From positions 1 to 64,000 of the forward strand of contig JAHJJD010000054.1 in assembly GCA_018822845.1 (NCBI GenBank): a DNA stretch of 64,000 bases. The letters run 5' to 3'. The DNA comes from Gammaproteobacteria bacterium. Its GTDB lineage: Bacteria; Pseudomonadota; Gammaproteobacteria; Thiotrichales; Thiotrichaceae. Each line of letters opens with the position of its first letter. Within the stretch, counting starts at the first letter, position 1. The notes beneath the pieces are model-generated. The model saw only the letters and a program-made list of their open reading frames with translations, did no database searches and was not told the origin of the DNA. Below, one piece after another: positions 42,134-46,509 of this stretch. A program made the position numbers and the translations under genes.

Positions 42134-42511
42134 ATGAAGAATACGCACAACCGACCCCTTTCCCCTCACTTGCAGGTGTACAAGCCGCAACTGACATCCA
42201 TGTTATCGATCCTGCATCGTGGCACGGGTGTAGTGCTGGCGGTCGGCACACTGCTGGTAACGTACTGGCTGGCAGCCATTGCGGGCGGTGAGGAATCATT
42301 CAACAGCGCTAACGCCATCCTCGGCTCATGGTTCGGCAAGCTGGTGTTGTTTGGTTGGTCATGGGCGCTGTTCTATCACCTTTCCAATGGTATCCGTCAC
42401 TTGTTGTGGGATATCGGTTTCGGTTTTGACCTTCCTACTGTTTACCTGACTGGCAAGATTGTGGTGGGCGCTTCATTCGTGCTGACCATCCTGCTGTGGA
42501 TTGTTGCCTGA
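42134..42511 (+). CDS. sdhC: Succinate dehydrogenase cytochrome b subunit
   Basis: A 125-aa membrane anchor with three helices. RPLSPHLQVYKPQLTSMLSI and FYHLSNGIRHLLWD are conserved quinone/haem-site segments, including the haem His. ATG 42134 (MKNTHNRPL) is chosen over the longer ORF frame, which would overlap gntR. First gene of sdhCDAB. Confidence 0.94.
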   Translation: MKNTHNRPLSPHLQVYKPQLTSMLSILHRGTGVVLAVGTLLVTYWLAAIAGGEESFNSANAILGSWFGKLVLFGWSWALFYHLSNGIRHLLWDIGFGFDLPTVYLTGKIVVGASFVLTILLWIVA

Positions 42512-42536: not shown

Positions 42537-42917
42537 ATGAGTTTATTGACGCCTTTCAAACGGGCCAGCGGCCTTGGCAGCACCAGCGACGGGGTAAAGC
42601 ACTGGTGGATGCAACGCATGACCGCTGTTGCCCTGGTTCCACTCACATTCTGGGTCGCTTTTGCAGTTGCATCCCATACTGGATCGGATTACGCCACAGT
42701 AGCGGCCTGGTTCACCCAGCCGTTCACTACCACCATGCTGACACTGTTCGTGTTTACTGCGTTCCTGCACGCCAGCCAGGGTCTGACCGTGGTCATTGAG
42801 GATTATATCCATCATGACGGCGTGAAAGTCACCGCGCTGGTCGGCATGAAACTGGCGCTGGTATTACTGGGAACCAGCAGCATCCTGAGCATTTTACGTA
42901 CCGCTTTTGCAGGCTGA
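42537..42917 (+). CDS. sdhD: Succinate dehydrogenase membrane anchor SdhD
   Basis: A 126-aa hydrophobic anchor. GVKHWWMQRMTAVALVPL and FLHASQGLTVVIEDYIH are the typical quinone-site and haem-ligand segments. ATG 42537 is preceded by AAGGAG. It lies between sdhC and sdhA in the operon. Confidence 0.93.
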   Translation: MSLLTPFKRASGLGSTSDGVKHWWMQRMTAVALVPLTFWVAFAVASHTGSDYATVAAWFTQPFTTTMLTLFVFTAFLHASQGLTVVIEDYIHHDGVKVTALVGMKLALVLLGTSSILSILRTAFAG

Positions 42918-42936: not shown

Positions 42937-44724
42937 ATGTCCGAATACAAGATCGAACATCATACCTATGACGTAGTGGTTGTAGGCGCTGGCGGCGCGG
43001 GTTTGCGTGCCACTTTCGGGATGGCTGTGAAAGGTTTGTCCACTGCCTGCATCACCAAGGTTTTCCCGACCCGCAGCCATACCGTGGCGGCACAGGGCGG
43101 CATGTCCGCCGCACTCGGCAACATGGGGCCGGACAAGTGGCAATGGCACATGTACGATACCGTGAAAGGTTCCGACTGGCTGGGTGACCAGGATGCCATC
43201 GAATACATGTGCCGTGAAGCAGGCCCTGCCGTGATTGAACTGGAACATCAGGGCGTGCCGTTTTCCCGCACGGAAGACGGACGTATTTACCAGCGTCCGT
43301 TTGGCGGCATGACCACCGAATTTGGCAAAGGCATTGCGCAACGTACTTGCGCGGCGGCTGACCGCACCGGCCATGCCATCCTGCATACCTTGTACCAACA
43401 GTCCTTGCGCCATAACGCAGTATTTTTCATTGAGCATTTCGCTACTGACCTGATCATGGACGAAGACGGCGTTTGCCGTGGGGTCATGGCCTGGGATTTG
43501 GCGAATGGTATCCTGCGCCTGTTCCGTGCCCAGAAAGTGGTGCTGGCAACCGGCGGTTACGGGCGTGCCTACTTCTCGGCAACCTCCGCCCACACCTGTA
43601 CCGGCGACGGTAACGGCATGGTGACACGTGCTGGCCTGCCCTTGCAGGATATGGAATTCACCCAGTTCCACCCTACCGGCATCTATGGTTCAGGCTGCCT
43701 GATCACCGAAGGGGTGCGTGGTGAAGGCGGTTATCTGACCAACTCACAGGGCGAGCGTTTCATGGAACGTTATGCGCCGAACGCCAAAGACCTGGCTTCG
43801 CGTGACGTGGTAAGCCGCGCCATGACGGTGGAAATCAACGAAGGCCGTGGTGTTGGCCCGGAGAAGGATCATATCCATATCCATCTGGAACATCTGGGTG
43901 CAGAAGTCATCCACGAACGTCTGCCGGGTATTGCCGAAAGTGCGAAAATCTTCGCGGGCGTAGACGTAACCAAAGAACCGATTCCGGTGCTGCCAACCGT
44001 CCACTACAACATGGGCGGCATCCCTACCAACTACCACGGCGAAGTCGTCACCCTGAAAGACGGTAACCCTGACAGCACGGTTCCCGGCCTGATGGCGATT
44101 GGCGAATGTGCCTGTGTATCCGTGCACGGTGCGAACCGCCTGGGTTCCAACTCACTGCTCGACATCGTGGTATTCGGTCGTGCAGCGGCTAACCGTTGCG
44201 CCGAAACCCTGTCACCGGGCGCTGTCCAGCAAGACCTGCCCGTTTCCGGTGTAAACAAAGCCATGGATCGTTTCAAGCGCATCCATAATGCCAATGGCAG
44301 CAAGACCACCGCACAAATTCGCGACAATATGCAGCGCACCATGCAGAAACACGCTGCGGTATTCCGTACCGGCGAATCCATGCAGGAAGGTGTGGCGAAA
44401 ATGAACGAGATTTACGCCAGCTTCAACGATGTTGCCGTCAGAGACCGCAGCCTGGTGTGGAACTCTGACCTGATGGAAACCTTTGAGCTGGCCAACCTGC
44501 TGGATTGCGCCCAGACCTCCATCAACTGCGCCTTGAACCGTGAAGAAAGCCGTGGTGCACACGCCCGTGAAGACTTCCCTGATCGTAATGATGAAACCTG
44601 GATGAAACACTCCATTGCCTGGCTGGATGATGCTGGCAAGGTATCCATCGACTACCGCCCCGTCCACACTTACACGTTGACGGATGAAATCGACTACATC
44701 GCACCGAAGAAACGGGTTTACTAA
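42937..44724 (+). CDS. sdhA: Succinate dehydrogenase flavoprotein subunit
   Basis: A 595-aa catalytic subunit. The FAD site is [27 protein letters not shown] carries the His that binds FAD covalently. The active site includes [20 protein letters not shown] and [13 protein letters not shown]. It oxidises succinate to fumarate on the cytoplasmic side of the inner membrane. The two downstream SdhE-family genes are expected to act in its flavinylation. Confidence 0.97.
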
Positions 44725-44736
44725 GGGAGCATAGCC

Positions 44737-45516
44737 ATGGCTGAATTTACATTGCCTGCCAACTCGGTGATCAAGACTGGCAAAACCTGGGCAGCACCTG
44801 CTGGTGCAACCCGTGTTAAAAACTTCCGCATCTACCGTTACGACCCGGATAGCGGCGAAAACCCGCGCTGGGATACCTACCAGATCGACCTCGACCAGTG
44901 TGGGCCGATGGTGCTGGATGCGTTACTGAAGATCAAGAACGAGATTGATCCTTCCCTGACCTTCCGCCGCTCCTGCCGTGAAGGGATTTGCGGTTCCTGC
45001 TCAATGAATATCGGTGGTACCAATACGCTGGCCTGCATCAAGGCGATTGACGCATTTGACGGCGACCTGCAAATCAGCCCGCTGCCACACATGGAAGTCG
45101 TCAAGGATCTGGTTCCTGACCTGACCCACTTCTACGCGCAGTACTCCTCCATCAAACCATGGATGCAGACCCAGACCCCGGCTCCACCGGATCGCGAACG
45201 CCTGCAATCGCCGGAAGACCGCAAGAAGCTGGACGGCCTGTATGAATGCATCCTGTGTGCAAGCTGCTCAACCTCCTGCCCCAGCTACTGGTGGAACAGT
45301 GACCGTTACCTCGGCCCGGCAGTACTGCTGCAAGCTTACCGTTGGGTGGTGGACAGCCGTGACGAAGCGACTGGTGAGCGTCTGGACAATCTGGAAGACC
45401 CATTCCGCCTGTACCGTTGCCATACCATCATGAACTGCACCAATACCTGTCCGAAGGGCTTGAACCCGGCCAAGGCAATTGCAGAACTGAAGAAGAAAAT
45501 GATCGAACGTAGATAA
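44737..45516 (+). CDS. sdhB: Succinate dehydrogenase iron-sulfur subunit
   Basis: A 259-aa subunit with three Fe-S centres: [2Fe-2S] in [13 protein letters not shown], [4Fe-4S] in [12 protein letters not shown], and [3Fe-4S] in [15 protein letters not shown]. It passes electrons from SdhA to the quinone. It follows sdhA by 12 bp and is followed by a strong hairpin. Confidence 0.96.
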
Positions 45517-45525
45517 GACCGATGT

Positions 45526-45559
45526 GATGCAGGGGCGAAAAATCTTTCGCCCCTGCATC
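45526..45559. repeat. Perfect 15-bp hairpin between sdhB and sdhE
   Basis: GATGCAGGGGCGAAA (45526-45540) and its exact complement TTTCGCCCCTGCATC (45545-45559) flank AATC. No T-run follows, so it is more likely an mRNA stabiliser or attenuator that sets SdhE below SdhCDAB, or a dispersed GGGGCGAAA-type repeat, than a terminator. Confidence 0.8.
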
Positions 45560-45583
45560 CCTATAAAAACAGGACACAGCACC

Positions 45584-45820
45584 ATGAGCGAACTTTCCCG
45601 TTTGAAACTGCGCTGTCGGCGCGGCATGAAAGAACTGGATGTGTTGTTCCAGCGTTATCTGGAAGTTCACTACCCATCCGCCAGCGCGGAAGAAATCCAG
45701 CAACTGAATGAACTGCTGGACATACAGGATCCTCTACTGTTTGCCATGATTCTTGACATGGAACCGGTTCCTGGAACATATGCTGAGCTTGTTGCCAAAT
45801 TGAGGAAGGCACATGACTGA
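45584..45820 (+). CDS. sdhE: FAD assembly factor SdhE
   Basis: A 78-aa SdhE/YgfY-family protein that promotes covalent FAD attachment to SdhA. RRGMKELD carries the conserved RGxxE motif (Arg13, Gly14, Glu17). ATG 45584 is chosen because MSELSRLKLRCRRG matches family N-termini; the ORF-track start at 45524 lies in the hairpin. It overlaps the next gene by 8 nt. Confidence 0.92.
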   Translation: MSELSRLKLRCRRGMKELDVLFQRYLEVHYPSASAEEIQQLNELLDIQDPLLFAMILDMEPVPGTYAELVAKLRKAHD

Positions 45821-46094
45821 GCACCTGGAAAAGGAGCGGATGGTACGCCTGCGCTGGGCCTGCCGCCGCACCCTGCAAGTGCTGGATCGGCCCTTGGGAG
45901 ACTTTTTGCAGGACTGCTTCGCCGATCTGGACATGGGGGAACAGTTTGCATTTGAACGCCTGTTGAACTGCAAGGATCAGGAAATTCTCGACTGGCTGAT
46001 CGGCAATCGGCAACCACACGACGCCCGCATTTGCGGTATCATCGACAAGATACGCGCCCACAACGACACTAACGGAGGAAATTCCCATGCCTGA
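45813..46094 (+). CDS. Second SdhE-family paralogue with degenerate RGxxE
   Basis: A 93-aa protein that aligns with SdhE throughout: RLRWACRR...LD, FERLLNCKDQEILDWLIG and a C-terminal IIDKIRAH. The key motif reads RRTLQVLD, so the conserved Gly is Thr20 and Glu is Val23. It overlaps sdhE by 8 nt and the rhodanese gene by 8 nt. It may partner SdhE, bind another flavoprotein, or be a decaying duplicate. Confidence 0.8.
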   Translation: MTEHLEKERMVRLRWACRRTLQVLDRPLGDFLQDCFADLDMGEQFAFERLLNCKDQEILDWLIGNRQPHDARICGIIDKIRAHNDTNGGNSHA

Positions 46095-46509
46095 AATTCA
46101 TGACCTTTCCCCCAAAACTGCCTACACCTTCTTGCAGGAAACGCCCCGCAGCGTCCTGATCGACATTCGCTCATCCATGGAATACCTGTTTGTCGGTCAC
46201 CCGGTTGGCTCTGTGCACATTGCCTGGATCGATGAACCGGACTGGCAGGAAAACCCTGATTTCTCAATCGAAGTCCAGCGGCTGCTGGAACAGCGTTTCA
46301 AGGACTGCGACGCCAGACAGGATGCATCCGTCGTACTGATCTGCCGCAGCGGGAAGCGCTCCCAGGAAGCCGGGGCTGCCTTGCTGGCAGCCGGTTTCCA
46401 GAACGTCATGCACGTCGACGAAGGTTTTGAAGGCGAACGTGACGAGAACCACCATCGTGGCACCCTGGGAGGCTGGCGTTTTCATGGCCTACCGTGGGAG
46501 CAGTGCTGA
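46087..46509 (+). CDS. Rhodanese-like sulfurtransferase
   Basis: A 140-aa single rhodanese domain. SVLIDIRSSMEYLFVGHPVG is the N-terminal CH2-type motif and ICRSGKRSQEAG the active-site loop with its catalytic Cys. It is translationally coupled to the second SdhE-like gene (8-nt overlap), so it belongs to the sdh operon. A sulfur-transfer or Fe-S maintenance role is inferred from position. No sulfur acceptor can be named. Confidence 0.9.
   Translation: MPEIHDLSPKTAYTFLQETPRSVLIDIRSSMEYLFVGHPVGSVHIAWIDEPDWQENPDFSIEVQRLLEQRFKDCDARQDASVVLICRSGKRSQEAGAALLAAGFQNVMHVDEGFEGERDENHHRGTLGGWRFHGLPWEQC

Follow-up and report, generated by a model that had tools for sequence, protein, structure and literature searches.

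A Conserved SdhE Paralog without the RGxxE Motif Encoded in Tandem with SdhE1 in the sdh Operon of Thiothrix and Some Thiolinea

The window examined here is the whole 64,000-nucleotide stretch of DNA from a genome of the genus Thiothrix, and in it sdhB is followed by two overlapping genes for SdhE-like proteins. The second of these, denoted sdhE2, is a real and conserved SdhE paralog that has lost the RGxxE motif and is found in one clade only. We found no published account of tandem SdhE paralogs, or of SdhE in Thiothrix, in the open-access literature, and as far as that search extended sdhE2 is undescribed. We give about even chances to the proposal that SdhE2 is a nonflavinylating paralog that is probably made together with SdhE1, binds SdhA, and has an accessory role in holding it or handing it over.

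SdhE (also YgfY or CptB; PF03937) is an FAD assembly factor of complex II and is known as SDHAF2 or Sdh5 in eukaryotes. In organisms ranging from bacteria to humans, RGxxE is regarded as the hallmark of SdhE; paraganglioma and deficiency of complex II have both been associated with alterations of its glycine. In the structure of the FrdA-SdhE complex from E. coli, SdhE covers the FrdB-binding surface, the carbonyl group of G16 touches the FAD-linking histidine of FrdA, and R8 is positioned near FrdA; flavinylation is lowered by mutation of G16 (PMC5773532). The G16R and E19A variants of SdhE from Serratia are nonfunctional (PMC8621075). A further report describes SdhE as raising the binding of FAD and the affinity for dicarboxylates of apo-SdhA, and as stabilizing the preassembly complex (PMC9557727).

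Results

The features of the sdh operon in the window are as follows.

sdhC, 42134..42511, + strand: cytochrome b556 subunit (TIGR02970, 137 bits vs a cut-off of 52.3)
sdhD, 42537..42917, + strand: membrane anchor subunit (TIGR02968, 86.3 bits vs a cut-off of 41.8)
sdhA, 42937..44724, + strand: flavoprotein subunit with the FAD-linking His (TIGR01816, 967 bits vs a cut-off of 727)
sdhB, 44737..45516, + strand: iron-sulfur subunit (NF004616, 379 bits vs a cut-off of 228)
Hairpin, 45529..45560, no strand: core GGGGCGAAA-aatc-TTTCGCCCC, in the gap between sdhB and sdhE1 (sequence and pattern scans)
sdhE1, 45584..45820, + strand: SdhE/Sdh5 flavinylation factor with RGMKE (PF03937, 69.6 bits)
sdhE2, 45813..46094, + strand: SdhE paralog with RTLQV in place of RGxxE (PF03937, 59.6 bits)
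Rhodanese gene, 46087..46509, + strand: single-domain rhodanese with a CRSGKRS loop (PF00581, 57.5 bits)

The sdhE1 gene begins 67 nt after the stop codon of sdhB and extends from the ATG at 45584 to the TGA at 45820; it encodes 78 amino acids with the motif in the context CRRGMKELD. The sdhE2 gene extends from the ATG at 45813 to the TGA at 46094 and encodes 93 amino acids with the corresponding context CRRTLQVLD. It overlaps sdhE1 by 8 nt (45813-45820) and the rhodanese gene by another 8 nt. A reading made from the sequence alone had described two SdhE-like genes after sdhB with an 8-nt overlap, the first with RGMKE and the second with RTLQV; the coordinates were found to hold, and the translations read as it stated. 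Both proteins clear the cut-off of 27 bits for the Pfam Sdh5 family (PF03937), and a search of the host genome found no third Sdh5 gene. The scores against the NCBIfam SdhE equivalog NF008130 were 48.1 bits for SdhE2 and 36.2 bits for SdhE1; the cut-off of 120 is far above both, and thus this model does not discriminate between the two copies. An SdhA with covalently bound FAD is encoded in the same operon as sdhE2, and the FAD-linking histidine and its context are intact in every relative with sequence covering that site.

The hairpin at 45529-45560, with its GGGGCGAAAAATCTTTCGCCCC core, is one of six similar dispersed palindromes in the genome (≤2 mismatches). A similar hairpin is found between sdhB and sdhE1 in one relative (G061), and other relatives have different G/C-rich hairpins at this position.

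Relatives were searched for the pair, as the sequence-only reading had proposed; the genera are coded, with g1 for Thiothrix and g8 for Thiolinea. Adjacent sdhE1 and sdhE2 genes were found in 16 of 16 Thiothrix and 4 of 9 Thiolinea genomes. Each of the Thiothrix genomes has the pair in the same operon with the same 8-nt overlap; in Thiolinea the two genes abut or are a short distance apart, with no fixed overlap. Recurrence in these 20 genomes makes the pair neither a chance occurrence nor a sequencing error. Elsewhere in the family, genomes have a single SdhE copy or none that was found, always with RGxxE; the exceptions are G008 and G020, with two nontandem copies each. The copies in G008 (L004 and L043) lie in two separate sdhB-sdhE arrangements, both with a canonical RGxxE, and are of two different tree types. 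Among 323 evenly drawn genomes of Gammaproteobacteria, Sdh5 was found in 284 and two copies in only 2, namely, the window genome and one Thiolinea. When an SdhE2 profile was searched against 399 Pseudomonadota, the window gene scored 164 bits and the runner-up 71 bits, and no genome had two matches at that threshold.

The sdhE2 gene is absent from six relatives (G038, G042, and G043, together with G041, G044, and G047, which are less complete), and it is thus apparently dispensable in part of its clade. On a tree of SdhA and SdhB, the carriers and noncarriers are intermixed within g7 and g8 and four changes are required; the simplest reading is an old gain of sdhE2 followed by losses. In Thiothrix fructosivorans ATCC 49748 (L068), the sdh operon and the sdhE pair are located on a contig of 446 kb that the title of the record names as plasmid pTfr446.

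AF2 models of both proteins were built, in each case from an alignment of the window sequence with those of relatives, and were compared with the PDB using Foldseek. The model of SdhE2 is a compact five-helix fold (pLDDT 87.6, pTM 0.78) that matches SdhE of the SdhA-SdhE complex 6C12 with a TM score of 0.81 by query and 0.87 by target (probability 1.00), and it also matches E. coli YgfY. The model of SdhE1 (pLDDT 85.1, pTM 0.69) matches the same SdhE with a TM score of 0.85 by query. The best 10 PDB matches of SdhE2 and the best 11 of SdhE1 all belong to the SdhE/YgfY/Sdh5/SDHAF2 family. SdhE2 is therefore a member of the SdhE family (PF03937) by descent, and the expectation that it keeps the SdhE fold, which a misfolded model would have contradicted, is borne out by the prediction.

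Residues are numbered according to SdhE from E. coli, and SdhE2 was compared with 125 aligned SdhE sequences that are not SdhE2 (20 partner SdhE1 proteins, 35 others from the family, and 70 from the class). Position 16 is threonine in 20 of 20 SdhE2 proteins and glycine in 125 of 125 of the others. Position 19 is glutamate in all 125 of the others, whereas in SdhE2 this residue has been lost from 17 of 20 proteins (Val in 12, Ala in 4, Met in 1, and Glu in 3). The RGxxE motif of a functional flavinylation factor is thus not found in SdhE2. It is still conceivable that SdhE2 is a working or conditional flavinylation factor, with the two copies either redundant or specialized for different conditions such as the level of oxygen or dicarboxylates. 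Only the backbone carbonyl of the glycine is reported to touch the histidine, and so another small residue might be tolerated; the remainder of SdhE2 is canonical, and three of the four Thiolinea proteins retain the glutamate (RTxxE), which may allow residual flavinylation. However, both residues are invariant in the 125 other sequences, substitutions of G16 and E19 reduce or abolish activity in several organisms, and the threonine is fixed rather than drifting. We therefore consider this explanation to be unlikely, although plausible enough to be kept in mind.

Outside of the motif, SdhE2 retains R8, W11, C13, R15, L20, F27, L35, F43, D51, and W57, and it has glycine at position 60, where the E. 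coli protein has asparagine. Twenty-four columns are invariant in SdhE2 across the two genera, and SdhE2 has an invariant signature of its own, which in the numbering of the window protein comprises P27 and, at residues 44-49, QFAFER. W11, F27, L35, and F43 have been lost from SdhE1, and W57 mostly so; the motif aside, SdhE2 is thus closer than SdhE1 to the canonical sequence. The pattern is complementary, since SdhE1 keeps G16 and E19 and SdhE2 keeps residues that SdhE1 lacks (W11, L35, F43, and W57). One could propose from this, and from the overlap of the genes in all Thiothrix, an obligate heterodimer in which SdhE1 supplies RGxxE and SdhE2 the canonical aromatic positions. W11 is also missing, however, from SdhE1 of G038, G042, and G043, relatives without sdhE2 in which the protein evidently works alone, and hence the complementary residues are no proof of interdependence. 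Moreover, W57 has already been lost from SdhE of other genera in the family, and in the E. coli complexes SdhE is bound to the flavoprotein by itself (PMC5773532). We regard an obligate heterodimer as quite improbable.

It might also be supposed that SdhE2 serves some other protein, for example the flavoproteins AprA or NadB, or that it acts with the rhodanese in the handling of sulfur or Fe-S. The host genome does encode AprA (TIGR02061, 887 bits) and a NadB-sized homolog, and in the window sdhE2 shares its last 8 nt with the rhodanese gene. However, genome searches for the SdhA superfamily (PF02910) in four sdhE2 carriers (G050, G039, G040, and G045) found only SdhA and one NadB-sized protein, with AprA absent, which rules out AprA as the common client; the NadB-sized protein is also found in genomes without sdhE2. 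SdhA is therefore the sole candidate for a covalent-FAD client that is common to all of the sdhE2 carriers examined, and it is presumed to be the client of both SdhE proteins. Nor is the rhodanese an obligatory partner: sdhE2 is present in G046, where no rhodanese was found in the ~5 kb downstream, and G038 (genus g7), G042, and G043 have sdhE1 and the rhodanese without sdhE2. The sequence-only reading had also suggested a chaperone for a rhodanese-coupled step, and this is thus not supported; the rhodanese is a neighbor of sdhE2 and a putative functional partner at most. A client other than SdhA, or a role with the rhodanese, seems to us correspondingly doubtful and decidedly unlikely.

D523/E was the single SdhA interface position with a consistent difference between carriers and noncarriers in a comparison of few genomes, and coevolution of SdhA with SdhE2 is not supported. 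Two Thiothrix genomes encode an additional SdhA-superfamily protein of ~635 amino acids, with a weak match to aprA, at roughly 35 kb or less from the sdh operon (G052:C2:79387-80634 and G053:C1:1689464-1690711). At positions 3009-4558 of L037 (G056), on the minus strand, the match to the rhodanese gene that follows sdhE2 is split into two pieces separated by ~1.1 kb, a pattern suggestive of an insertion.

Pairwise dN/dS values were determined within Thiothrix by the method of Nei and Gojobori, with the exclusion of pairs saturated at silent sites. The median values were 0.084 for sdhE2, 0.157 for sdhE1, 0.088 for the rhodanese gene, 0.044 for sdhA, and 0.032 for sdhB. Purifying selection is thus stronger on sdhE2 than on its partner, and for this reason sdhE2 is not a pseudogene. 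The pseudogenization in relatives that the sequence-only reading had named as a possible refutation did not occur; several Thiolinea genomes are simply without the gene. That sdhE2 is a nonfunctional or nearly neutral relic retained by its position in the operon is highly improbable, for although the gene is missing from these Thiolinea genomes and from G038, it has no internal stops, its invariant columns extend across two genera, and its median dN/dS is below that of sdhE1 and about equal to that of the rhodanese gene.

The SdhE2 proteins group as a single clade (support 100/99), the stem of which is long (1.33). The clade is located among canonical gammaproteobacterial SdhE sequences, apart from the SdhE1 proteins of its own family. 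Forcing SdhE2 to group with the SdhE1 proteins from g1, g7, and g8 was only marginally rejected (AU p 0.049), and the test thus does not distinguish tandem duplication from the acquisition of another sdhE.

Discussion

SdhE2 resembles SdhE/YgfY/CptB in sequence and predicted fold, in the location of its gene in the sdh operon, and in the residues R8, W11, C13, R15, L20, D51, and W57. It differs in the replacement of RGxxE, in its own signature, and in being encoded in tandem with a copy that bears the motif. The sequence-only reading had proposed a paired and specialized flavinylation factor. A paired, specialized SdhE-type factor is supported by the conserved pair of overlapping genes, the SdhE fold, the purifying selection, the invariant change from glycine to threonine, and SdhA as the only shared covalent-FAD client.

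In the mechanism that we favor, SdhE1 would have the canonical role of binding apo-SdhA and promoting the covalent attachment of FAD to the histidine of SdhA. SdhE2 retains the predicted SdhE fold and the residues at the end predicted to face SdhA (R8 and R15, and also W11 and C13), with threonine in place of the glycine whose backbone carbonyl meets the FAD-linking histidine and with the glutamate mostly gone. The retention of the fold and of R8 and R15, together with the loss of G16 and E19, leads us to expect that SdhE2 can bind SdhA without the catalytic contact. The overlap of the genes probably couples their translation, such that SdhE1 and SdhE2 are synthesized together. SdhE2 would most likely occupy the same SdhB-facing surface of SdhA as SdhE1 and would not drive flavinylation; it would be an accessory factor that holds SdhA or hands it over prior to the docking of SdhB.

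SdhE2 was also compared with SDHAF4 (Sdh8; PF07896), which binds covalently flavinylated SdhA and releases SDHAF2. Free SDHAF4 is disordered, and its C-terminal Asp-Phe is inserted into the active site of SdhA (PMC10784507). Homologs of SDHAF4 in alpha- and gammaproteobacteria are known to be limited in number (PMC10238741). The likeness of SdhE2 to SDHAF4 is a possible analogy of role only, as a second small SdhA factor in the sdh operon; SdhE2 is not homologous and lacks the C-terminal Asp-Phe, and a profile search with PF07896 (DUF1674) found no match to SdhE2 or anywhere in the host genome. Eight genomes of Thiotrichaceae have a PF07896 gene (six from g5, one from g3, and one from g2). In the three that were checked, L051 (G030), L049 (G031), and L052 (G018:1409-1618), the gene is directly upstream of sdhC and the protein ends in TRYGDWEKxGRCIDF. 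SDHAF4 and sdhE2 were never found in the same genome (sdhE2 is absent from all eight PF07896 genomes, and PF07896 from all sdhE2 carriers). Most of the other genomes have neither gene, and the mutual exclusion is thus a lead, rather than an indication that one has replaced the other. A more specific and rather improbable version of the mechanism is that SdhE2 in Thiothrix and Thiolinea is a counterpart of eukaryotic and proteobacterial SDHAF4 that arose convergently from the SdhE fold and would bind flavinylated SdhA, displace SdhE1, and shield the flavin until SdhB docks.

A natural SdhE that is maintained by selection without RGxxE is a ready-made tool for separating the binding of SdhA from its flavinylation. 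The characterization of SdhE2 may ultimately reveal how SdhA is handed over to SdhB in bacteria that lack SDHAF4.
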